Assembly: GCA_030697825.1 (NCBI GenBank)
Contig: JAUYOW010000329.1
Location: 1-53,453, forward strand
Direction of reading: 5' to 3'
From: Gemmatimonadales bacterium
GTDB lineage: Bacteria > Gemmatimonadota > Gemmatimonadetes > Gemmatimonadales > JACORV01
Length of the DNA stretch: 53,453 nt
Shown: positions 5,085 through 35,794 of the stretch, piece after piece
How positions within the stretch are numbered: position 1 is the stretch's first letter
Layout of the letters: each line of letters opens with the position of its first letter
Position numbers and translations under genes: made by a program
Notes under the pieces: model-generated
What the model was told of the DNA's origin: nothing
Seen by the model: only the letters and a program-made list of their open reading frames with translations
The model's database searches: none

Positions 5085-7626
<2,542 letters not shown>

Positions 7627-7630
<4 letters not shown>

Positions 7631-9150
7631 TGCTGGACGTTCTTCAGAAAGCTGAGGTCGTGTCCCTTGGCCTTGAGCATCGCCTCCAGAGCGCTCTTGT
7701 CCACGGATTTTATCCACGCCTCGTGCGGCTCCACGAGCTTCTTCTCCACGGCGTCGAGCAGCGCGTCGTTCAGCGTCACCATGCCGATCTTCTTGTTGGT
7801 CTGCATCATGGACTGGATCTGGAAGGTCTTTCCCTCGCGGATCAGGTTCGCGATAGCTGGGATGTTGAGCAGTATCTCCCGCACCGCCACGCGCCCGCCG
7901 CCGATCTTCTTGCAGAGGATCTGCGCGACCACCCCCTTCAGGGACTCCGAGAGCATGACGCGGATCTGGCTCTGCCGGTCGGCGGGGAACTGGTCGATGA
8001 TGCGGTCCACGGTGGACGGGGCGGTCGTGGTGTGCAGCGTCCCGAAGACGAGGTGTCCGGTCTCGGCGGTCTCGATCGCGATGGCCACGGTCTCGAGGTC
8101 GCGCATCTCGCCCACCAGCACGATGTCCGGGTCCTCGCGCAGCGCGGCGCGCAGCGCCCGCTTGAACGAGTCGGTGTGCAGCGACACCTGCCGCTGCGTG
8201 ATAACGCAGCTCTTGTTGGGGTGCACGAACTCGATCGGGTCTTCGATCGTGATGATATGATCGGTGCGCTTGCGGTTGACGAGGTCGATCATCGCCGCGA
8301 GCGTCGTGGACTTGCCGGAGCCGGTGGGGCCGGTCACCACCACCAGGCCCTTGCTCAGGAAGCAGAGCTTCTGCACGTCCTCGGAGAGGCCCAGCTCCTC
8401 CACGGTCATGATCTTGGTCGGGATGACGCGGAAGGCGGCGGCCGGACCCTTGCGGTCGCGGAGCACGTTGGCCCGGAAGCGCGCCAGGTCCAGGATCTCG
8501 TACGCGAAATCGCTGTCGTTGGTCTCCGCGAATTCCTTCCGGTTCCGCTCCGGCATTATGGAGAGGAGGAGGGCCTGCACCTCGTCCACGGTGAGAGGCT
8601 CGTAGCCCTCCAGCCGCTCCATCACGCCCGACTTGCGGATGATGGGCGGCTCGCCGACGCGCAGGTGCAGGTCGGACGAGCCCGACTTGACCAGCCTCTG
8701 GAGCATCTCCTGGATGCGCTCTTCCGCGGCGTCGGAGGCCTCGACCGCCTGGCGGGTCGGCGCGGGCGCGGACTGCATCGGCGGCAGGTTGCCCTCCACG
8801 CCCATCCGCGCTTCCATCGGCATCGAGATCGCGGCTGACGAGCGGCGGGCGCGCGCCGGCGACACCCTCACCCGCACGTCCTCTCCGGCGTGCAGGATCT
8901 CCACGTCCACCCGCTGGCCTTCGAGCGCGTAGCCGAACGCCATCCGCGACTCGGCGTCGAGGTGGTCCTTCATCCCCTCCGGCGCGATCTCCCGCACCAG
9001 CGCCATGACCTTGGGTCTGGTCAGGACCTCCTTGGTGACGGGCCGGTCCGCGCCGTCCACCTCGAGGACGACCGCCGCTCCGCTCTCGAGGCGCACGCAG
9101 CCGGCGCCGTGCTCGAACATCACCTGGATGAACTTGTCGAGAATGGCCAT
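7627..9150 (-). CDS. pilT: PilT-family type IV pilus retraction ATPase with extra N-terminal domain
   Basis: 507 residues from the ATG at 9150. From about residue 135 it is a canonical PilT: SSDLHLRVGEPPIIRKSG, Walker A GPTGSGKST, the Asp box IITIEDPIEFVH, Walker B IVLVGEMRDLETV, and the His box FGTLHTTTA, ending with the PilT-type IREGKTFQIQSMMQ. PilT hexamers depolymerise the pilus. The usual length is about 350 residues. The extra 130 N-terminal residues look like a divergent second copy of the PilT N-terminal (PAS-like) domain (GAGCVRLESGAAVVLEVDG), linked by a Pro-rich stretch. The gene follows a small K/E-tailed protein and precedes a hybrid kinase, suggesting surface or chemosensory control of motility. 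No other pilus genes are in the window. Confidence 0.9.
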
Positions 9151-9176
9151 CGGTGGGTGGATCCCCGGGTTCGCGA

Positions 9177-9593
9177 CTAGTGGCTGCCGGACGCCGCTTG
9201 CTTCTCCTTCTCCTTCTCCTTCTCCTTCTCCTTCTCCTTCTCGCCCTTCTCCCGCTTGTCCGTTTCGACGATCGCTTTCATCGTGCGCTCGATCAGCTGC
9301 TTCAGCGCGATCGAGCCCTCGCGGATGGTGCGGGACCGCTGCATCTGGTTCCCGCGCCCCGCGGCCACTCCCAGCATCCCGGCATGATCGGCGACGAAGC
9401 CGAGGTTCTTGATCATGGCCTGCTGACGGATCTGGCCCAGCGTGCGCGTCATCTGCGACAGGTACATGTCGGCGCCCTTGTTGGCCTTCGCGTACTGCTC
9501 CACCAGGGCCGTGATGTGGTCGCACCTCTTGAGCACGCTCTCCAGGAACTCGTATTCCTCGGCCGCCTTCGCGGACAGCTTGATTCCAGCCAT
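9177..9593 (-). CDS. Small helical protein with Lys/Glu-repeat tail
   Basis: 138 residues from the ATG at 9593 (a TTG two codons upstream is possible). The body is mainly alpha-helical (KAAEEYEFLESVLKRCDHIT, TLGQIRQQAMIKNLGFVADH). Near the C-terminus is a charged KEKEKEKEKEKEK run encoded by a 6-nt tandem repeat, followed by QAASGSH. No family recognised. It directly precedes the PilT-like ATPase with a 26-nt gap on the same strand, so it may be a pilus or motility accessory protein; this is inference. No Shine-Dalgarno is visible, but a TAGGAT box sits 5 nt before the ATG, consistent with a leaderless start. Confidence 0.72.
   Translation of the reverse strand: MAGIKLSAKAAEEYEFLESVLKRCDHITALVEQYAKANKGADMYLSQMTRTLGQIRQQAMIKNLGFVADHAGMLGVAAGRGNQMQRSRTIREGSIALKQLIERTMKAIVETDKREKGEKEKEKEKEKEKEKQAASGSH
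9201..9242. repeat. Hexanucleotide tandem repeat CTTCTC x7 inside a gene
   Basis: Seven perfect CTTCTC units (read on +) encode the alternating Lys-Glu tail of the small protein at 9177-9593. Because the unit is 6 nt, slippage would change tail length by two residues without breaking the frame. Confidence 0.9.
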
Positions 9594-25875: not shown

Positions 25876-25881
25876 TATGAT
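25876..25881 (+). promoter_or_regulatory. Candidate -10 box TATGAT for a leaderless transcript
   Basis: TATGAT (5 of 6 to TATAAT) ends 8 nt before the ATG at 25890, which has no Shine-Dalgarno. A -10 at this distance places the transcript start at the initiation codon. There is no convincing -35. Confidence 0.4.
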
Positions 25882-25889
25882 TGCGCCCC

Positions 25890-28800
25890 ATGCAGACCGG
25901 CCGTTCCTGGTCCTTGCGGCGCATAGTGGATATCCGCTCTGGTGAGGTCACGCCGGTCCTCGCCATGGCGGCGCTGTACTTCTTCGTCATCGGCGCGGCG
26001 AGTCTCGTCAAACCGGTGCGGCAGGCTGCGTTCCTCGACGCCGCGGGCGCCAACGCCTACCCGTTCGTGCTGCTGGGCACCGCCGTGGTCGTGGCCCTGC
26101 TCATGGGCGGCTACGCCCGCCTCGCCGAGCAGGTGCGCGTCTCGCGGCTCCTCCTCGGCACCTACGTCTTCCTCGCGCTGAACCTCGTAGGGTTCTGGTG
26201 GCTTTTCCGGTCGCCGATCGCCCAGGCGACGTGCGTGCGCACGCCTGATAGCGCTTGCCCGCTGCTGTCGGCCCCGGTCCTGATCAGCGCGGCATTCTTC
26301 ATCTGGGCCGCGATCTACTCGGTGCTCACGGTCTCGCAGTTCTGGCTGCTCGCCAACCTCGGCTACGACGCGCGGCAGGCCAAGCGCCTGTTCGGGTTCA
26401 TCGGCGCCGGGGGCATCGTCGGCGGGATCGTCGGAAGCTGGGCGGCCAGCGTCCTCGCCAAGGTCCCGGGCATCGGTCGGGTCAACATCGTGCTGCTCTC
26501 CGCCGCCGCGCTCCTCCTCGCGGCCGCGCTCGCGGCCTGGATCCTGGCGCGAACGCCCGCCGCCTTGCCCGCCGAAGAGCGGAAGAAGAAAGGCGCGGCG
26601 GTCGTCCGGGCCGGCGCCGCGGCGCTGGTGCGGGAGTCGCCCCATCTGCGCGCGGTGGCCGCGATTCTCCTCGTCATCATCGTGGTCTCCGCGATCGCCG
26701 ACCAACAGCTCAACAGCGCGGTCGAAGCCTACGTCCCGCAGGGCGACGCCCGCACCGCCTTCTTCGGGCAGTACTTCGCCGTGACGAACGTCATCTCGCT
26801 GTTCGTGCAGCTATTCGTGACCAGCTTCGTGCTCCGGCGTTTCGGCGTTGGCGTGGCGCTGCTCCTCCTCCCGATCGCGATGCTGGGCACGTCCGTCGCG
26901 CTCCTGGTGGCGCCGTCGCTCCTCGCCGCCGCGGTCGTCCGCGGCGCCGACCAGTCGCTGCGCTATTCGCTCGATCAGTCTACCCGCGAGCTGCTCTTCC
27001 TGCCGGTCCCCGCGGAGATCAAGGGCCGCGTCAAGCCGTTCATCGACGTCGCCGTGCAACGGTCTGGCAAGGGCCTTTCCGCGATCCTGATCCTGGTGCT
27101 GCTTACCTGGCTCAAGGTCCCGTTCCAGTACCTGAGCGTGGCGGCCATCTTCGTGATCGGCATCTGGTTGGCGTGCGTGTGGATCGTGAAGCGCGAGTAC
27201 GTCGCCGCGATCAAGCGGATGATCAGCGTGCGCGACGTGCAGGTGGACGAGCTGGTGGTGCGGGCGCTCGACGCCGACAGCCGCCGCGAGCTGGCGACCG
27301 CCGCCGTCTCGGGCGACCCGGCCGCCCAGCGCTTCGCGCTGGAGCTGCTGCGCGTCGCGGGAGAAGCGCCCGAGGGCGAGACCGCTGCGAAGCTGCAGTA
27401 CCCGTCCATTGTGGACGTCGAGTCCCGCGCCGAGCAGGTGCGCGCCGAGATCGCGCGCGGCGTCACGCCCGCCCAGGCGGAGGCGTATCTCGCGGACCCG
27501 CTGCCTCGGGTCAGGGCCGGTGCGGTGGCGGCGTTGAGCGGAAGCTCCGACGCCGGGATCCGGGCGCTGGCCGAGGACGCGCTCCGACGCATGGCGGAGG
27601 CCGATGGTCCACTGGCCGCGACGCTCCGTCGCGAGGCTGCACTCGTCGTCGCGAGCCTCCCCGCCTCGGATGCCACGACGGACGTGCTGCGGCGGCTCCT
27701 CTCGGACGATACGCCCGCGGTGCGGAAGGCGGCGTGCGTCGCGGCCGGCCGCCTCGGCAAGCGTGAGTTCGTTCCGCGGTTGCTCGCCGCGCTTCTGGAG
27801 CCCGAGCTGCGCGACGACGCTCGTGACGCTCTCCACGCGGTCGGCGGCCGCGCGGCCGGCAGCATCGGCGACACGCTCCGCGACGCGTCTGAGCCGCGCG
27901 AGATCAGGATCCAGGCGGCGCGCGTCCTCGCCGGAATCCCGGGGGCCCTCACCGCGGCCGTCCTGGTCGCGGCGCTCGATGACGCCGATGCCGAGATCCG
28001 ATACCACGCGCTCAAGTCGCTCAACCGGCTCCGACGCGACCATCCGGACACGGTCGTGGACGCCGCCGCGGCCGAGCGCGCCCTGGAGCGCGAACTGGCA
28101 AGCCTGCGCACCGTCGCCGCGGCCAAGATCGATCTGGCTCCGCTCATCACCGGCGACGGACCCGGTCTCCTCGCCGTAGCCGTCGCCGAGCGTCGTGACG
28201 ACGGGATCGAGCGGGTCGCGCGCGCTCTCGGACTCGTCTATCCGCTGAGCGACATGGTGCACGCATACCGCGCGGTCGCCTCCGGTGATGCGTCCGCTCG
28301 GACCAGCGGCCTCGAGCTGCTGGAGAACGTGCTCTCCGCGACCCACCGTCGCGTCGTTATCCCCGCGCTGGACGTGGACGCCCTGGCCTCGGTCGCACGC
28401 GAGGCACCGCCCTGGCGCGCCGACACCTGGCTGGTCACCTGTGCCGCGCACGCGGCCACCCGCACCCCGCACGGCGAGTCCGCTCCGCCGATCGGGCTCC
28501 CGACGTTGGAGGCAAAGATGATGTCGATCCTTGACCGGGCGGAGTTCCTGCGCAACGTCGAGTTCCTCTCGCTCGTGCGCACCGAGTACCTCGCCAAGAT
28601 CGCGGCCGTGATGACCGAGCGCGCCGTCAACGCCGGTGACGAGGTCGTCGCGCAGGGCGCCACCGTGGACCAGGTGTACCTCGTGGCGAGCGGCAAGCTG
28701 GTCGCGCGGCGCGATGGTCAGGTGCTCTTCATGGCCGGCAGGGGCGACGCGGTCGGCGCGCTCTCCGTGCTCGACGGCAAGCCCAGCCCCTTCGCGGCGG

Positions 28801-28970
28801 TAGCCCTCGAGAAAGCCACCGTCCTTTCGGTGGGCTCGGAGGAGTTCAGCGACCTGATGCACGACAACAACGCCATCATGCTCGGCCTGCTGCGCTACCT
28901 CGCGGGGCAGGTGCGCGAGCTCTCGAGCATGGCGCGTCAGACCGGTAAGGCCGCGACGACCATCTCGTGA
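25890..28970 (+). CDS. Nucleotide-transporter-like (Npt1/Npt2, ADP/ATP carrier-type) protein fused to HEAT repeats and a cNMP-binding domain
   Basis: 1026 residues from the ATG at 25890 (a TTG three codons upstream is possible). Residues about 20-430 hold about 12 hydrophobic segments with ADP/ATP-carrier-type features (FFVIGAASLVKPVRQAAFLD, SLDQSTRELLFLPV, EIKGRVKPFIDV). Residues about 440-800 are HEAT-like helical repeats (LAEDALRRMAEADGPLAATL, AVRKAACVAAGRLGKREFVP). Residues about 890-1000 are a cyclic-nucleotide-binding domain (VVAQGATVDQVYLVASGKLV, GDAVGALSVLDGKPSPFAA). Energy-parasite relatives exchange ATP/ADP, but in free-living bacteria the cargo is unknown. The cytoplasmic tail looks like a ligand-gated regulatory arm. 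It is coupled to the next gene by GTGA. Confidence 0.85.
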   Translation: MQTGRSWSLRRIVDIRSGEVTPVLAMAALYFFVIGAASLVKPVRQAAFLDAAGANAYPFVLLGTAVVVALLMGGYARLAEQVRVSRLLLGTYVFLALNLVGFWWLFRSPIAQATCVRTPDSACPLLSAPVLISAAFFIWAAIYSVLTVSQFWLLANLGYDARQAKRLFGFIGAGGIVGGIVGSWAASVLAKVPGIGRVNIVLLSAAALLLAAALAAWILARTPAALPAEERKKKGAAVVRAGAAALVRESPHLRAVAAILLVIIVVSAIADQQLNSAVEAYVPQGDARTAFFGQYFAVTNVISLFVQLFVTSFVLRRFGVGVALLLLPIAMLGTSVALLVAPSLLAAAVVRGADQSLRYSLDQSTRELLFLPVPAEIKGRVKPFIDVAVQRSGKGLSAILILVLLTWLKVPFQYLSVAAIFVIGIWLACVWIVKREYVAAIKRMISVRDVQVDELVVRALDADSRRELATAAVSGDPAAQRFALELLRVAGEAPEGETAAKLQYPSIVDVESRAEQVRAEIARGVTPAQAEAYLADPLPRVRAGAVAALSGSSDAGIRALAEDALRRMAEADGPLAATLRREAALVVASLPASDATTDVLRRLLSDDTPAVRKAACVAAGRLGKREFVPRLLAALLEPELRDDARDALHAVGGRAAGSIGDTLRDASEPREIRIQAARVLAGIPGALTAAVLVAALDDADAEIRYHALKSLNRLRRDHPDTVVDAAAAERALERELASLRTVAAAKIDLAPLITGDGPGLLAVAVAERRDDGIERVARALGLVYPLSDMVHAYRAVASGDASARTSGLELLENVLSATHRRVVIPALDVDALASVAREAPPWRADTWLVTCAAHAATRTPHGESAPPIGLPTLEAKMMSILDRAEFLRNVEFLSLVRTEYLAKIAAVMTERAVNAGDEVVAQGATVDQVYLVASGKLVARRDGQVLFMAGRGDAVGALSVLDGKPSPFAAVALEKATVLSVGSEEFSDLMHDNNAIMLGLLRYLAGQVRELSSMARQTGKAATTIS

Positions 28971-30244
28971 CCCGTCCGCTCGCCGGCTTAGCGCTCGCCG
29001 CCGCGCTCGCGGCATCCGCCCCGCCGCTCCGGGCCCAGGACAGCGCGCTGGTCGTTCTGGAGACCCACGGCAACGGCCTTTCACTGGCCAAAGCGATCAG
29101 CCTCCCCTTCGAGATCGCGTTGTTCCCGGTTGATCTCCTCGGCCACGGCGTCAACCAGGGTCTCAAGTGGGTCGAGGACCGCCGGGTGATCGCCAAGGTG
29201 GCGGTGACGATGGCGCGCATCGCGCCGTTCTCCGTGCGCGTCGGCGGTCTCGGAGAGCACTCGGGCTTGGGACCGGGACTCGCCGTGGCCTTCGGGGACG
29301 ACGGCGACAGGCGCTGGTCGGCGGGCGCCGCGGCCAACATCACGACACCGGGCTACCAGCTCCACACCGCCGTGCTGAGGTATCGCACCTCCCACGCGCT
29401 GGCGATGACCGCGTTCGCCGAATACAAGGTGGACACGCAGGACGAGTTCTACGGCACGGGCGCGACGTCCGCGGTGGGCGACCGATCCGACTACCGATAC
29501 CGCCGGGCTTCGGCCGGCGTCGGCGTCGAGTGGCGTCCGGCGGCGCGCGTCATGGTCGAGGCGCGCGCGGAATCCCGCCGCGAGGAAACGGAGGGGTCGG
29601 CGCGCAACTCACTCATTCTCGACCTCGAGGACCGGTTCGTAGACCGGTTTCCCGCCGGGTTCCTCGCCACATACCCGTCATTCCGACCCGCCGTGCGAGT
29701 GGGGTGGGACGGGACGCGCCGCACGGCGCGCGGGCCGCTCGGTGCGTTGGGGATGCTCACTTACGGCTACAATCGTGGGGCCCGCAATACCGACCCGAGC
29801 TTCCACGAGGTGGACGTCGAGGCGCGGGGCTACGTCCCGCTCGGCGGCCTGCGGCGAACGCTGGCGCTGCGGGCCCGCGTGGAACTGCGGCGCGCCGATC
29901 GCGGCGCGATTCCCTTCTACCGACTGGCGGCCGTCGGCGGCAGCCGGGACCTGCGCGCCTTCCGCGCCAACCGGTTCCGCGACACCGACGGCGTCCTGGT
30001 CACGGCGGAGTACCGCTACCGCGTCTGGCAGGACGACCGCGCCGGCAAAGGGCTCGACATGGTGCTCTTCGCCGATGACGGCGCCGTAGTGTCGGACATC
30101 TTCTTGGGGCTCGGGGCGAGCGACTTCCACGGCGGATACGGCGCCGGCATCCGCCTCACGGCGCGGGACGTGCTGGGCCGGATCGAGGTGGCGCACGGGC
30201 GCGAGGGGACCCGCATCCAGGTGCGCGCGGGGCCGCTGTTCTGA
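28967..30244 (+). CDS. BamA/TamA-family (surface antigen D15-like) outer-membrane barrel
   Basis: 425 residues, GTG start overlapping the transporter stop (GTGA). There is a signal peptide (LAASAPPLRAQ). Beta-strand-rich with barrel features: RYRTSHALAMTAFAEYK, YGTGATS, RRASAGVGVEWRP, AVGGSRDLRAFRANRFRD (a G-rich loop and RxFR-like motif as in the D15 L6 region), VLVTAEYRYRVW, and a terminal strand RIQVRAGPLF ending in Phe, typical of BAM substrates. There are no POTRA repeats, so it is a short barrel-only member. Function is unknown. It is operonic with the transporter upstream and the lipoprotein downstream (ATG overlap at 30244). Confidence 0.82.
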   Translation: MTRPLAGLALAAALAASAPPLRAQDSALVVLETHGNGLSLAKAISLPFEIALFPVDLLGHGVNQGLKWVEDRRVIAKVAVTMARIAPFSVRVGGLGEHSGLGPGLAVAFGDDGDRRWSAGAAANITTPGYQLHTAVLRYRTSHALAMTAFAEYKVDTQDEFYGTGATSAVGDRSDYRYRRASAGVGVEWRPAARVMVEARAESRREETEGSARNSLILDLEDRFVDRFPAGFLATYPSFRPAVRVGWDGTRRTARGPLGALGMLTYGYNRGARNTDPSFHEVDVEARGYVPLGGLRRTLALRARVELRRADRGAIPFYRLAAVGGSRDLRAFRANRFRDTDGVLVTAEYRYRVWQDDRAGKGLDMVLFADDGAVVSDIFLGLGASDFHGGYGAGIRLTARDVLGRIEVAHGREGTRIQVRAGPLF

Positions 30245-31923
30245 TGAGGCGTGGTCCGTTCGTCCTGGCGCTATGTCTTCTCGCCGCCGCCTGCTCGCGA
30301 GGCCCGCATCTGGTCCTGACCGCTCCGCCGCGAGCCTACGACGACACCACCCACATCCCAAGGCCGCCGTTCAAAACCTTCAGCGAATACGCCGACATGC
30401 TGGAGACCACGGTAGTCGAGCCCGCCGAGCGTTTCTTGAACCCGGCGCGGCGGGTTCGGCGCGCTGGCCACGCGCGCGAGGCGCGGAACTACGACGCCTG
30501 GGACGACGTGGTTAATTCGTCATGGTTCGAGCACCGCAACGGCCGCAGTCCGATGACGCCGGCCCAGGTCCGGCGCGGCCCCAACGAGGAGGCCGGTCCG
30601 TCCCCCACCGGGCCGCTGACGATCGTCGCGCCCAAGCGCACGGGCGTCACGCCCGGCTTGAGGGTCCTCGACACGAACGGCAACACGTATCTGCTCAAGT
30701 TCGATCCGGCGGACTCGCCGGAGTTGGCGAGCGCCGCCGAAGCGATCGCGACGAAGCTGGTGCATGCGGCAGGCTACAACGCTTCGCGCGCGTACATCTA
30801 CAGCTTCGATCCCGCACGCCTCGTCGTCGGTCCCCGGGCGCGTATGCGCAACCCCGACGGCAGCGAACGCCCGATGACGATGGCCGACGTGAATGCGGTC
30901 CTCGCGCGCGCGGCACGCCTGAGCGACGGCCGCATCCGCGCACTCGCGAGCTGGTGGATCCCGGACGCCGTGGGGCCCTTCAACTGGGAGGGGAGGCGCG
31001 AGGACGACCCCAACGACCGCATCCCACACCAGCACCGTCGTGAGCTGCGTGGGTTCTACGTCTTCGCGGCGTGGATCAACCACGTGGACTCGCGCCGCGG
31101 GAACACCTTCGACCAGTTCGTCGGCGACTCCACCGGCGGCTACATACGGCACATCATGCAGGACGTCAGCTCGACCCTCGGCTCCGGGTCGGATCGCATC
31201 CAGACCCCGTACGACGGCGCCGAGACCACGCTCGACTACCCGCACATCGCGGCGCGGGCGCTGTCCCTCGGCCTCTATCGCGTGCCGTGGGAGCGGCTCG
31301 ACACCGGGCGCGCCGACTCCGCGACCGGATACTTCTCCGTCCGCAACTTCGATCCCGGCGGCTGGATGCCGCTCCGCCCGAACGCGGCCTTCGAGGAGCG
31401 CACCGACCGCGACGGGTACTGGGGCGCGAAGATCGTGGCCTCGTTCAGCGATGAACAGCTGCGCGCCGCGGTGAGTGCCGGCGAGTACAGCAGGCCGGCG
31501 GCAGCCCAAGCGATCGTGCGCGCGCTGATCGAGCGTCGCGACGCGACGGTGCGCTACTGGTTCGTGCGGGTGACGCCGATCGAGCACCCGGTGGTGCGGT
31601 GCGACGGCGCGGATGTCTGGCTCACGTTCGAGGACTACGGAATCCGCCCTGCCGTGGCGGGCGCGGCGGAAACAGCCTACCGCGCCTATCTCGAGTACGC
31701 TTCCGCGGGCATCGGCGTCTCGACCTTGGCCCGGGCCGGCGAGACGCTCCGGTTCGCGGCGGGCCTGCCCCGCGGCGACTTCGCGCCGGACCGCGACCAG
31801 GACCGTATCGCCCGCATCACGGTTCGCGCCGAGCGGGACGGCCGGGCAGCCCCTGCGGCGACCGTCTATCTACTTTATGAGCCGGCGGTGCGTTGCTACC
31901 GGGTGGCCGGGCTGGCTCACTAG
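30244..31923 (+). CDS. Lipoprotein with protein-kinase-like catalytic motifs (unrecognised family)
   Basis: 559 residues, overlapping the barrel gene by 1 nt. The signal peptide ends in AAAC, with Cys17 the likely lipidation site. The middle has the layout of a kinase-like fold: a beta-strand lysine in NTYLLKFDP (Lys152), a helix with Glu161 and Glu166, WINHVDSRRGNTFD (Asp282, Asn287, like the HxDxxxxN catalytic loop), and HIMQDVSSTLGSGS (Asp307, like a DFG metal site). Such patterns occur in CotH-, HipA- and Fam20-like atypical kinases. I do not recognise a named family, and activity is conjecture. The C-terminal part (about 440-559) looks like a separate beta domain. It is the last gene of the transporter-barrel-lipoprotein set and borders the cassette-like island. 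Confidence 0.6.
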   Translation: MRRGPFVLALCLLAAACSRGPHLVLTAPPRAYDDTTHIPRPPFKTFSEYADMLETTVVEPAERFLNPARRVRRAGHAREARNYDAWDDVVNSSWFEHRNGRSPMTPAQVRRGPNEEAGPSPTGPLTIVAPKRTGVTPGLRVLDTNGNTYLLKFDPADSPELASAAEAIATKLVHAAGYNASRAYIYSFDPARLVVGPRARMRNPDGSERPMTMADVNAVLARAARLSDGRIRALASWWIPDAVGPFNWEGRREDDPNDRIPHQHRRELRGFYVFAAWINHVDSRRGNTFDQFVGDSTGGYIRHIMQDVSSTLGSGSDRIQTPYDGAETTLDYPHIAARALSLGLYRVPWERLDTGRADSATGYFSVRNFDPGGWMPLRPNAAFEERTDRDGYWGAKIVASFSDEQLRAAVSAGEYSRPAAAQAIVRALIERRDATVRYWFVRVTPIEHPVVRCDGADVWLTFEDYGIRPAVAGAAETAYRAYLEYASAGIGVSTLARAGETLRFAAGLPRGDFAPDRDQDRIARITVRAERDGRAAPAATVYLLYEPAVRCYRVAGLAH

Positions 31924-32062: not shown

Positions 32063-32093
32063 GGCTAACTCGGCGCTGGGGCCGAGTTATGCC
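32063..32093 (+). terminator. Strong hairpin, possible terminator at left edge of cassette island
   Basis: GGC-TAACTCGGC pairs with GCCGAGTTA-T-GCC (32063-32074 with 32081-32093), 12 bp with one bulge and a 6-nt loop. It begins with GGCTAAC and ends with GTTATGCC, words like integron core sites, but is far too short for a normal attC. There is no T-tract. It may be a terminator of the lipoprotein gene or a collapsed recombination site. The 139 bp before it (31924-32062) hold nothing I can name. Confidence 0.45.
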
Positions 32094-32166
32094 GCGTATC
32101 TCGCAGTGTAAGTCCGATTGACAAACACTGCGGGGATGGGCGCCCAATGCTTGTAAACACCCATAC

Positions 32167-32173
32167 GTTAGGC
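32167..32173 (+). repeat. Core-site-like GTTAGGC before first cassette ORF
   Basis: GTTAGGC matches the integron insertion core GTTRRRY and lies 8 nt before the ATG of the next ORF. The upstream arm that should pair with it is not clear; GGCTAAC at 32063-32069 is the only candidate. Confidence 0.4.
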
Positions 32174-32181
32174 TGCAACCG

Positions 32182-32706
32182 ATGCTTGCTCGGTCAGCGA
32201 TCTGTGCTCTCGCGGCGACACTCGCCCTGCTGTGCGACCCAGCCTCTGTGGCTGCGCAACGGCACGCCGCGTATCTCGTGCCGGTGCGCGACTCGACTCG
32301 TGCCGCCCAGCAAGTGTACCGGCCCACCTACTGGGCGGAGGGCGCGACGGTCGGGGCGGCGATCGTCGGCACCACTGGCGCGTGGATCGCATACGGGTTC
32401 CGGTGCGAGTTCTCCGAGATTCCGTCGGACTGTGCGGTGGGCCCGATTCTCGCGACCGGTGTGCTTGGGGCCCTGCTTGGCGGTACCGTAGGCGGTCTGA
32501 TCGGCGGTGCCTTTCCAGCCGCGAAGACCCGTCCGCTTCAAGGGCACCCGGTCCGATCGACGGCGATCGGGACTGCCGCAGGCGCTCTCTGGAGCTTTGG
32601 GCTCTTCTGGCAGTTTTGCCTGAACGGCTGTCGTTCCGACGAGGTCGCGTTCGGACTTTCGACCGCCGCTGTCGGCGCGCTCGCCGGCCTGCTCGTGGGT
32701 CGCTAA
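32182..32706 (+). CDS. Small exported glycine-zipper membrane protein (cassette ORF 1)
   Basis: 174 residues. There is an N-terminal signal peptide (ICALAATLALLCDPASVAAQ), then Gly/Ala-rich hydrophobic segments (GATVGAAIVGTTGAWIAYGF, GVLGALLGGTVGGLIGGAF, AIGTAAGALWSFGLFWQFC, STAAVGALAGLLVG) with GxxxG-type zipper spacing, and Cys residues that could pair in the periplasm. No family recognised. It starts 8 nt after GTTAGGC and stops 17 nt before GCCTAAC, as a cassette gene would. No Shine-Dalgarno. Exported small membrane proteins are common among cassette genes of unknown function; the role here is unknown. Confidence 0.7.
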   Translation: MLARSAICALAATLALLCDPASVAAQRHAAYLVPVRDSTRAAQQVYRPTYWAEGATVGAAIVGTTGAWIAYGFRCEFSEIPSDCAVGPILATGVLGALLGGTVGGLIGGAFPAAKTRPLQGHPVRSTAIGTAAGALWSFGLFWQFCLNGCRSDEVAFGLSTAAVGALAGLLVGR

Positions 32707-32723
32707 CCCTGGCAGCCGTTGCA

Positions 32724-32824
32724 GCCTAACTTGGTGAAGCTGCCGGTCTGCGCGCTGTACATTCAGCCGTATCCGCTGTCGCGGGCCGCGCGCGCGGCCC
32801 GCAGCTATGCACTAGTCGTTAGCA
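32724..32824 (+). repeat. attC-like site 1 (GCCTAAC ... GTTAGCA)
   Basis: 101 bp from GCCTAAC (32724-32730) to GTTAGCA (32818-32824). The inner arms GAAGCTGC and GCAGCTATGC pair through AGCTGC/GCAGCT, with unpaired bases as in attC L boxes. A perfect 20-nt palindrome (32782-32801) lies inside. The last 25 bp match those of the site ending at 33674. Confidence 0.5.
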
Positions 32825-32917
32825 TCGGCAGCACAGAACACGCTCCACCGGGAGGAGCTGCCGCCTAACAGTGGCTCATCTTTGATGTCGCCGTTGGCAT
32901 TCGGAAGTGACGCGGCT
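32825..32917. other. Gene-less spacer with an extra GCCTAAC word
   Basis: This 93-bp stretch between two attC-like sites has no credible ORF. It carries a 7-bp inverted repeat (CGGCAGC / GCTGCCG) and GCCTAAC at 32863-32869, plus GTTGGCAT at 32893-32900. It could be the remains of an emptied or decayed cassette. Confidence 0.35.
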
Positions 32918-33015
32918 GCCTAACGGGATGAAGCCGCCAGCGCGGCCCACCGGCGCGGCGCGGCGTTTGCTGTCGGCATGGCCTCGCCTCGCAGCTTACG
33001 CGCCGCCCGTTAGGC
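32918..33015 (+). repeat. attC-like site 2, best formed (GCCTAACGGG ... CCCGTTAGGC)
   Basis: 98 bp. The outer arms are a perfect 10-bp inverted repeat (32918-32927 with 33006-33015) containing both core words. Inner arms GATGAAGC and GCTTACGC pair through AAGC/GCTT, the usual L-box words. The centre is GC-rich and only loosely paired, as in attC. Confidence 0.6.
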
Positions 33016-33089
33016 GCCCTTATGCGATGTAGGACATGCGCCCCACGCGTCCCTGCGCCGGATCGCCGGCAATTGCACAAGGAGGAGCA

Positions 33090-33398
33090 GTGGCTAAAGC
33101 GACACAGAACCTGATCATCGGAGTTGGTGGCCACGCCGTAGCAATCGACCACGCGACAGGAGCCGAGCTTTGGCGGACCAAGCTGAAGTCGAACAGCTAC
33201 GTCACCACGGTCTGGTCGTCCGCCGGGCGCGTCTATGCCGGGGCGGCGGGAGAGCTCTTCTGCCTCGACGCTCATACCGGCGCAGTCCTGTGGCACAATC
33301 GCTTGAAGGGTCTAGGGACGGGTATCGTTGCCTTCAGCACCAGCAGCGACATCGTGTCCGGCGCCGCGGCGGCGGCGGCAGTTGCCGCTACCGGTTGA
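33090..33398 (+). CDS. Single-unit PQQ/BamB-like beta-propeller-repeat protein (cassette ORF 2)
   Basis: 102 residues from a GTG at 33090 with AAGGAGG upstream; an ATG at 33036 in frame is less likely. Repeats of the PQQ/quinoprotein-like blade are visible: VGGHAVAIDHATGAELWRTK, VYAGAAGELFCLDAHTGAVL and WHNRL. Only one and a half to two blades are present, whereas a full propeller has six to eight, so it may self-assemble or cap another protein. There is no signal peptide. It sits between GTTAGGC (33009) and GCCTAAC (33432), the position of a cassette gene. The C-terminus ends in an Ala-rich tail. Confidence 0.7.
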   Translation: MAKATQNLIIGVGGHAVAIDHATGAELWRTKLKSNSYVTTVWSSAGRVYAGAAGELFCLDAHTGAVLWHNRLKGLGTGIVAFSTSSDIVSGAAAAAAVAATG

Positions 33399-33431
33399 CG
33401 CGCGCCGTCGCGCCCGTCAGACCGGCAGGGC

Positions 33432-33559
33432 GCCTAACCAGCGCTGAGCCCGTGTGAAAACTCGCACCGGTGATGGCCTCTGAGAATTCCGACGCTCACA
33501 TCTCGCTCAGGAGCCAGGATCTCGACCCAGTCAGAAGTCGGAAGACCCTCTCGTTATGC
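33432..33559 (+). repeat. attC-like site 3, degenerate (GCCTAAC ... GTTATGC)
   Basis: GCCTAAC (33432-33438) lies 33 nt after the stop of cassette ORF 2; GTTATGC (33553-33559) is an imperfect core. Inside, GCTGAGC pairs loosely with GCTCAG near 33505. A second pairing links CCGTGTGAAAACTC (33450-33463) with GAGTTGTCACACCGG, which runs to 33582 beyond the core. Confidence 0.35.
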
Positions 33560-33580
33560 ACATCCGAGAGTTGTCACACC

Positions 33581-33674
33581 GGCTCCGCGTGAAGCTGACG
33601 AGCCGCGGCCCGCCGTCAACGCGGTGGCTCGAGTGCTCGGCGGCCGCGCCGCAGCTATGCGCGAGTCGTTAGCC
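33581..33674 (+). repeat. attC-like site 4 (GGCTC... ... GTTAGCC)
   Basis: 94 bp. The 3' half GCAGCTATGC then AGTCGTTAGC repeats that of site 1 with the same spacing. The 5' side has GTGAAGCTGACG as the matching inner arm, but its outer arm (GGCTCCGCG) looks like GGCTAACGACTCGCG with a small deletion. Confidence 0.45.
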
Positions 33675-33726
33675 GCCACAGGGTCCCAACTGGCGCATAC
33701 GGGCGGCATCGGGGTAGAATGCACCT

Positions 33727-33813
33727 ATGACCAAGGCCCTGCAGAAGGTTCTCGACGTTGTCTCGCGCCTGCCGGATCAGGACCAGGACGCGCTGGCCGC
33801 GGCAAGTTGCTGA
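33727..33813 (+). pseudogene. Truncated antitoxin-like ORF start (28 codons)
   Basis: The ATG at 33727 opens MTKALQKVLDVVSRLPDQDQ, which resembles the short helical start of small antitoxin-like proteins with LPxxxQDALAA. It stops at a TGA at 33811-33813 after DALAAASC, where the family would continue with a longer helix. The break coincides with the start of DinB-like sequence in another frame, so it is a fusion or deletion junction. A TAGAAT box (33715-33720) 6 nt upstream could give a leaderless transcript. Confidence 0.4.
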
Positions 33814-34069
33814 CGCGCAGCGGACCCTTGTCGGGTTGTTGAGCGCCGCGGACTTGGAGCGGGCAATCACGTACGACAACCCACCCGGAGTTCGTTGGAG
33901 GTATTCGCTTGGGCAGGTGATGCAGCACGTCGTCAATCACTCTACCTACCATCGTGGCCAAACCACCAGCTTGCTGCGCCCGCCAGGCTTCCCAGCGGTG
34001 CCGACGGATTTCCTGGTCTATTTTGACGAGGTGACCGCCGCGGCCCGCGTGGTGGACGCTACGCACTAG
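33803..34069 (+). pseudogene. C-terminal fragment of a DinB-family protein
   Basis: About 88 codons with TLVGLLSAADLERAITYDNP, YSLGQVMQHVVNHSTYHRGQ (the HxxxHR metal-binding pattern) and a closing TDFLVYFDEVTAA. These are the C-terminal helices of DinB-like four-helix metalloproteins (usually about 150-160 residues). The N-terminal half, including the first metal His, is absent, replaced by the antitoxin-like start in a different frame. No convincing start codon of its own. It ends 2 nt before the next ATG. Confidence 0.65.
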
Positions 34070-34071
34070 AC

Positions 34072-34815
34072 ATGCGCCTCTCCGAACATCAGACGCACTC
34101 GGGCCGGTTCCTCTTCAGGTGGAGGAGCTACCTGCCGCTCGCGCTCCTGCCGGTCTTCGCCCTCAGCCTCGCCGACTACCGCTATCCGCTCGGCTCGCCC
34201 AAGCTGGGACTGGCGTGGGAGATCGTCTGCCTCGCGGTCGCTCTGGTGGGACTCGCGATCCGCGTGGCCGTAGTGGGGACCGTCCCGGCGGGGACTTCCG
34301 GCCGCAACATGAGCGCGCAGCAGGCGGAGGCGCTCAACACGACCGGCATCTACTCCGTCGTGCGCCATCCCCTCTACCTGGCCAACTACCTGATCTTCCT
34401 CGGCCTCGCCCTCCTGCCGTTCACCTGGTATCTCCCGGTCATCGTCACGCTCTCCACGGCCCTCTACTACGAGCGGATCATCCTCGTGGAGGAGGAGTTC
34501 CTCGACCAGCGCTACGGCGAGGCGTTCCGTTCGTGGGCCGCCCGCACGCCCGCGGTCATCCCGCGGTCGAAGGGCTGGGTCACCTCGTCGCTGCCCTTCT
34601 CGTGGCGCATCGCGCTCAAGGGAGAGATATACGCCGCGTTCGCGATCGTGGCGGGAGTCTTCGCGATCGACTTGGTCGAGCGTTCCCTGGTCGAGCGCGA
34701 GCTCCGAATGGACCCCGTCTGGACGGCACTATTCGCCGCGGGAGCGGTGGCCTTCTACGTGGTGCGGGGGCTCAAGAAGAAGACGTCGCTGCTGACCGTG
34801 GAGGGGAGGCCATGA
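34072..34815 (+). CDS. Membrane methyltransferase of the isoprenylcysteine/phospholipid methyltransferase type
   Basis: 247 residues, ATG at 34072. Several hydrophobic segments (YLPLALLPVFALSLADYRY, IVCLAVALVGLAIRVAVVG, LIFLGLALLPFTWYLPVIVT). The catalytic signature YSVVRHPLYLANYL and later YYERIILVEEEFLDQRYGEA contain the RHPxY and EExxL motifs of ICMT/PEMT-like enzymes, which use S-adenosylmethionine at the membrane face. An extra C-terminal pair of hydrophobic segments is present. The acceptor is unknown. It follows the DinB fragment by 2 nt and converges with the DUF2520 gene; the 76-bp gap between them holds no clear gene. Confidence 0.85.
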   Translation: MRLSEHQTHSGRFLFRWRSYLPLALLPVFALSLADYRYPLGSPKLGLAWEIVCLAVALVGLAIRVAVVGTVPAGTSGRNMSAQQAEALNTTGIYSVVRHPLYLANYLIFLGLALLPFTWYLPVIVTLSTALYYERIILVEEEFLDQRYGEAFRSWAARTPAVIPRSKGWVTSSLPFSWRIALKGEIYAAFAIVAGVFAIDLVERSLVERELRMDPVWTALFAAGAVAFYVVRGLKKKTSLLTVEGRP

Positions 34816-34891: not shown

Positions 34892-35794
34892 TCACCCGTC
34901 GGCCTCGCGCTGCACCGACGCGGCCCGCACGCCGAGCGCTCGCCCCACGGTCTCAGCTCTTCCCGCATCCAGGCCCGCCCGCCGCGCGATCGCGATCGTG
35001 GCGCGGCCCAGCGCCTCGTAGAGTGCCGCGACCTCCGGAGGCACGGCGCGAAGATGCTTGCGGACGGTCTCGACGTCCCCCCGCGCGATAGGCCCTGTCA
35101 GCGCCGCCTCCGGCCCCAGCCGCCCGACGTTGTCCACCGTCGCCCGCGCGATGGGTAGCAGGGCCGCGCGCGCGGTCTCAGGCGTCATTCCCGCTTCCTC
35201 CAGCAGATCCTGGGCGGTCGAAAGGCAGGTGAGCAGGTAGTTCGACGCGAAGACCGCTCCCGCGTGATACGCCGCTTTTGATTCCGGCGCGATGAAGGCG
35301 GGCATCCCGCCCAGGCGGCGCGTGAGTGCGTCAGCCGCTGCTACGGCCTCGAGGTCACCCTCGAGCGCGAAGCACGCGCCCTTGAAGTGCGCCGAGGCGC
35401 GGCCGGGCTCTTCGCCCACCGTCATCAACGGATGCATGGAGCCCAGCGCCGCGCCCTCCGCGGCCAGCGGCTCGAGGACGTCGTGCGTGAGGGCGCCGGA
35501 CAGGTGTAGCGCCACCTGCCCGTGCGCCAGCCCGCCGGCCTCCAGCAGCTCCGCCACGAGCGGGCGGAGCGCATCGTCCCGCACCGCGAGGATCACGACC
35601 CCCGCTTGGCGAAGCCAGGGCGGCGCTCCTCCGGCGGTGAGCTTGAGGCCGCGGGGCGCCGCCTTCGCGCGCCGCCCGTGCACGCCGAGGACCCGCACTC
35701 CCGCGCGCTTGAGCGCCAGCGCGAGCCCCAGCCCCGCCCTGCCGGGTCCGATGATTCCCACCGATGGAACGGCCGCCCCGCCCTTCTTCCTCAC
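34892..35794 (-). CDS. DUF2520 Rossmann-fold oxidoreductase-like protein (ProC/F420-oxidoreductase type)
   Basis: 300 residues from a GTG at 35794 overlapping the upstream stop (GTGA). The N-terminal Rossmann domain has VGIIGPGRAGLGLALALKRA and ILAVRDDALRPL. GSMHPLMTVGE and the helical second half (AAYHAGAVFASNYLLTCLST) match the DUF2520 family, which resembles pyrroline-5-carboxylate reductase and ketopantoate reductase. The substrate is unknown; relatives often sit near pantoate or folate genes, but here it closes a translation/replication operon. Normal length for the family (about 290). Confidence 0.88.
   Translation of the reverse strand: MRKKGGAAVPSVGIIGPGRAGLGLALALKRAGVRVLGVHGRRAKAAPRGLKLTAGGAPPWLRQAGVVILAVRDDALRPLVAELLEAGGLAHGQVALHLSGALTHDVLEPLAAEGAALGSMHPLMTVGEEPGRASAHFKGACFALEGDLEAVAAADALTRRLGGMPAFIAPESKAAYHAGAVFASNYLLTCLSTAQDLLEEAGMTPETARAALLPIARATVDNVGRLGPEAALTGPIARGDVETVRKHLRAVPPEVAALYEALGRATIAIARRAGLDAGRAETVGRALGVRAASVQREADG

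Follow-up and report, generated by a model that had tools for sequence, protein, structure and literature searches.

The cluster analysed here is a CALIN, and is most probably what remains of a chromosomal integron that lay between lolA and the DUF2520 gene and whose own intI has decayed or been separated from it by rearrangement. The term CALIN denotes two or more attC sites lying together with no intI nearby. The integrase IntI recognises the bottom strand of attC in its folded form and recombines it at G^TT, and cassettes are thereby excised or inserted. The window, meaning the whole 53,453 bp stretch that was analysed, is the complete contig C329 of a 3.37 Mb draft genome (333 contigs, 2.24% contamination). 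The relatives recovered by contig search were Gemmatimonadota MAGs, and two genomes of the same genus matched groundwater MAGs. A preliminary description made from the sequence alone had already read the locus as a CALIN. This reading is supported by two attC sites recognised by independent covariance models, by a third, probable site similar to attC sites of the same genome and of a congener, and by the lack of an intI on the contig.

The seven GTTAGGC, GTTAGC and GCCTAAC words on which that description was built were all confirmed in place, and an additional GCCTAAC was found at 32863. Eight words of the form GCCTAAC, GTTAGGC or GTTAGC followed by A, C or T fell within 1.6 kb (32167–33674), whereas 300 Markov-simulated versions of the window reached three at most. 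The clustering of core words in this section far exceeds chance. A search of the full window at the Rfam gathering thresholds gave no match. A plain scan for R and L boxes reached comparable single values on part of the simulated sequences and is, alone, too weak to split signal from chance.

Two covariance models were built from attC sites, both with the window sequence excluded. Model R1 was made from 17 attC sites of the order, mostly near integron integrases, and model R2 from 73 sites. In the 17-site alignment the R and L helices were paired in 97.7% of cells, against 19–42% when the partners were slid by 1–3 columns. The covariance-model check suggested in the preliminary description, run with R1 and R2, gave two clear sites and a weak third. 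Site 1 scored 27.9 bits with R1 (E 6.8e-5) and 26.5 bits with R2 (E 3.4e-4); site 2 scored 26.4 bits (E 1.6e-4) and 32.1 bits (E 1.5e-5) respectively. The best unrelated matches in the window reached 13–14 bits with either model. Sites 1 and 2 (26–32 bits) scored below other attC sites of the same genome (40–70 bits), and site 1 had an E-value of 0.02 when the whole genome was searched. Both are members of the attC family. The attC architecture of R and L boxes, an extra base in L'' and a bottom-strand stem was seen in the model alignments and folds, and the attC sub-type is common to the window, the integron on contig C103 and the congener G001.

Folding of the bottom strand, also put forward earlier as a check, gave the expected pairing of both the R boxes and the L boxes in site 1 and of the expected arms, in a long stem, in site 3. 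The best fold of site 2 (z-score -2.9) paired the R arms but branched inside. The imperfect palindromes of about 95–130 bp that had been described as spacers thus stand in part: two of 98–100 bp (32724–32823 and 32918–33015) are attC-like by the covariance models, but the first proposed site is unsupported.

It is extremely improbable that the locus consists of ordinary intergenic palindromes and small genes that carry attC-like words by chance. Stems form easily in GC-rich DNA, the cassette ORFs are short and the box scan found comparable single scores in some simulations, but against this reading stand eight clustered words where simulation gave at most three, two same-strand covariance matches about 95 bp apart with E-values of about 1e-4 or better when the next unrelated match has 13–14 bits, and the related attC sites that a congener carries at the same locus.

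Site 3 scored 12.3 bits with R1 (match at 33581–33674) and 15.7 bits with R2, which is not above noise on score alone; the score is weak because R'' is degenerate. Its L'' and right half aligned with attC sites of contigs C103 and C78 of the same genome and with an attC of G001. The second attC of the C103 integron, which site 3 matches, likewise has a degenerate R''. Judged from these alignments, site 3 is probably a member of the attC family. The preliminary description had instead taken the GCCTAAC at 33432 as the left core partner of 33668. This was not borne out, as the site would then span 243 bp and the L'' at 33589 is the proper partner of the right half. As an attC, the section 33432–33559 is unsupported by its R1 and R2 scores; the orphan pair is possibly a relic.

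The site proposed at the left edge (32063–32173) scored 9.0 bits with R2 (E 4.7), which is noise level, and a shorter form (32107–32173) had no attC-like fold. It is a decayed site or a chance likeness, and a palindromic attC there is unsupported. R1 and R2 searches found no recognisable site left of 32167. An attI at the left edge was also considered and set aside, since by eye the sequence had no likeness to the spacers that follow intI on contigs C103 and C246.

Table 1. Features of the cassette cluster and its right-hand flank (positions in the window)
Feature	Position	Strand	Description
Left edge	32063–32173	+	GTTAGGC at 32167 opens cassette 1
Cassette 1	32168–32818	+	Core words and attC site 1
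Cassette 1 ORF	32182–32706	+	174 aa; weak glycine-zipper match; third-position GC 0.75
attC site 1	32724–32824	+	R'' GCCTAAC, L'' GTGAAGCTGC, L' GCAGCTATGC, R' GTTAGCA
Cassette 2	32819–33009	+	No ORF; contains attC site 2
attC site 2	32918–33015	+	R'' GCCTAAC, L'' TGAAGC, L' GCTTA, R' GTTAGGC
Cassette 3	33010–33668	+	Contains probable attC site 3
Cassette 3 ORF	33090–33398	+	GTG start after AAGGAGGAG; 102 aa; PQQ/BamB-like beta-propeller fragment
Orphan GCCTAAC ... GTTATGC pair	33432–33559	+	R2 10.9 bits, E 1.7; R1 5.0 bits
attC site 3 (probable)	33579–33674	+	R'' degenerate, L'' GTGAAGCTGAC at 33589, R' GTTAGCC
DinB-family fragment	33758–34045	+	C-terminal half only; Pfam DinB positions 94–158 of 165, E 1.7e-10
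lolA 3'-end copy	34046–34067	+	22 bp (CGCGTGGTGGACGCTACGCACT); identical to lolA end on C73 of the same genome
DUF2520 gene	34892–35788	-	PF10728; first gene of the conserved block right of the insertion

When cassette boundaries were placed by cutting at G^TT, three cassettes resulted, all in one common orientation and each with a terminal attC. Small plus-strand ORFs had been described between the sites, and these were found in cassettes 1 and 3; cassette 2 has none, and 33758–34069 holds no cassette gene. The protein of cassette 1 had distant relatives (30–44% identity) in five other genomes of the order, and no attC was found beside them in those five genomes. The third-position GC of the small ORFs was 0.71–0.78, against 0.88–0.94 in most neighbouring genes, which suggests a foreign origin. 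The low attC scores, the degenerate R'' and the truncated ORFs together suggest partial decay, as had been proposed for this cluster. Downstream of cassette 3, a short frame (33727–33815) starting MTKALQKVLDVVSRLPDQDQDALAAA resembles the start of a small antitoxin that is cut short; its 28 residues had no Pfam match.

A TIGR02249 search of the genome revealed no intI on C329, in agreement with the earlier view that the cluster has no integrase. The same genome, where it had been proposed to look for intI, did encode an intact copy on contig C103 and decayed copies on other contigs. The C103 gene scored 412 bits (cut-off 265) and is followed on the same strand by cassettes and attC sites (6780–9224), the second attC being at 9100–9224. 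On C246 (9798–10960) intI matched only in its C-terminal part, corresponding to residues 193–317 of the C103 IntI, and this was followed by a GTTAGGC and one strong attC. Other intI fragments were on C34, where the gene is cut by the contig end, C322 and C73. About 30 further attC matches were scattered over many contigs. C78 (2489–13647) carried an extended one-strand array with some ten or more attC matches. The search for intI gave no match on C78, and the array may itself be a larger CALIN or else belong to an integron that has its intI past the start of the contig. Across the order, 96 of 201 sampled genomes had an intI over the family cut-off. Integrons of Gemmatimonadota are already known (PMC8618304), among them the large array of Gemmatirosa kalamazoonensis (PMC9024848). 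Because its gene is intact, the C103 IntI could plausibly act in trans on the sites of the window and mobilise the cassettes.

The genome is a draft of 333 contigs, integron arrays break assemblies (PMC9024848) and several of the intI-bearing contigs end close to intI, all of which speak for the cluster being one end of a complete integron that only the assembly has split. The cassettes, however, are internal to the 53-kb contig, and other genes fill 32 kb on the expected integrase side, so there is no contig break between them and an intI, and we regard this explanation as highly improbable.

As the genes at 30244–31923 and 34072–34815 were not shared with close relatives, the block containing the S41 peptidase and DUF2520 genes was taken as the synteny anchor. 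This conserved right-hand block runs DUF2520, TauE (in some genomes), S41 peptidase, thymidylate kinase, prmC and prfA. In other genomes it comes after a series that begins with SMC and ends with aroF and lolA, with lolA and DUF2520 convergent. Among 23 distinct loci with lolA and DUF2520 both on one contig, the gap between the two genes was at most 60 bp in 18 and 1–4 kb in five; an attC between them was found in none of the 23. The congener G001 carried two strong attC sites (53 and 50 bits) beside DUF2520, on the same side and in the same orientation as those of the window. They accompany a UPF0158 cassette followed by MBL-fold, glyoxalase-like and molybdopterin-oxidoreductase genes, and no gene content was common to this locus and the window. 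In G001 the gene after lolA is another gene, not intI. The ORFs and spacers of the window are thus not fixed at this locus in relatives, a possibility that had been raised against the cassette reading. The comparison shows the cluster to occupy an inserted, fast-changing spot.

Two neighbouring genes were of note in their own right. The gene at 34072–34815 resembles LmtA of Leptospira, a lipid A Kdo2 1-phosphate O-methyltransferase, with a score of 191 bits that is below the cut-off of 325. None of the genomes searched from the same genus or the same family had this gene. As it sits outside the repeat described below, it was pre-existing or separately acquired. On the other side of the cluster, 25881–28970 encodes a protein in which a TLC ATP/ADP transporter domain is fused with HEAT repeats and a domain for cyclic-nucleotide binding; genome G002 has a copy of it with 69% identity and different neighbours.

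The ORF at 33758–34069 was rejected as a cassette gene, as it consists of the C-terminal DinB fragment joined to 22 bp from the very end of lolA. This 22-bp copy marks the right edge of the insertion. Its counterpart is on C73, which encodes aroF and lolA, and there a C-terminal remnant of intI abuts lolA without a gap. The remnant comprises the last 46 residues and is 76% identical to the IntI of C103, with C73 ending 38 bp past the match; no intact integrase was present beside lolA on C73. The lolA end forms a direct repeat with copies on two unlinked contigs (C73 and C329). At a base where the lolA genes of G001 and G002 have a G, both copies carry a T, so both derive from the lolA of this lineage. 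The lolA end GCTACGCACTAG (34052–34069) also agrees at 11 of 12 bases with GCTATGCACTAG, which lies within the L' region of attC site 1 (32802–32823), possibly by chance.

Since the two sides sit on different contigs, we can only infer that C73, with lolA and the intI remnant, and C329 are the two ends of one insertion. In this lineage the 3' end of lolA was probably the entry point of an insertion that carried intI and cassettes; intI would later have been reduced to the remnant, and the cassettes near DUF2520 would persist as a CALIN. On C329 the cassettes have 32 kb of other genes to their left, so a rearrangement or a large insertion is also needed. The insertion was therefore not simple, and two unlinked contigs do not separate these two routes.

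Off-target insertion, intI loss and rearrangement have all been proposed as origins of CALINs (PMC8618304). The first would here mean that the IntI encoded by C103 inserted the cassettes and that the cluster never had an intI of its own. We consider this unlikely, yet it is the most serious of the alternatives: besides having been proposed as a CALIN origin (PMC8618304), it fits an intact intI elsewhere in the genome and attC sites dispersed over many contigs. Three serial cassettes in the same orientation, the intI remnant after lolA and the lolA repeat at the right edge are better fitted by loss of intI. The remnant and the repeat thus favour intI loss or rearrangement over off-target insertion. 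A further, rather doubtful suggestion is that the integron platform of this genus is a mobile island integrating at the 3' end of lolA, which would explain the 22-bp repeat; the gap between lolA and DUF2520 would then be a recurrent entry point for integrons, with CALINs forming there on loss of intI.

CALINs are common, and it is rarely possible to see how one formed. For this cluster, the unoccupied locus of relatives, the differing cassettes of a congener at that locus, the intI remnant and the duplicated gene end together favour loss of the integrase from an integron over scattered off-target insertion. The cluster also adds detail on integrons in Gemmatimonadota. With sedentary chromosomal integrons, such as the Gemmatirosa kalamazoonensis array and the C103 integron, it shares the attC architecture and the cassette orientation, and an intI remnant follows lolA on what is probably the other side of the insertion. 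It differs from them in having only three cassettes, and neither an intI nor a recognisable attI, both of which adjoin the array in a complete integron, was present at this locus. The 22-bp repeat of the lolA 3' end and the fragment of a tyrosine-recombinase gene at its other copy recall genomic islands that a tyrosine recombinase inserts at the 3' end of a gene, but the copies are on separate contigs, neither is accompanied by an intact integrase and the fragment is of integron type. From a CALIN nothing essential differs, although the window sites score weakly and one of them has a degenerate R'': there is no intI on the contig, and two confident attC sites and one probable attC lie in the same orientation with cassettes between them. 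In sum, this is a CALIN of an ordinary kind, for which the evidence of its history is unusually good.
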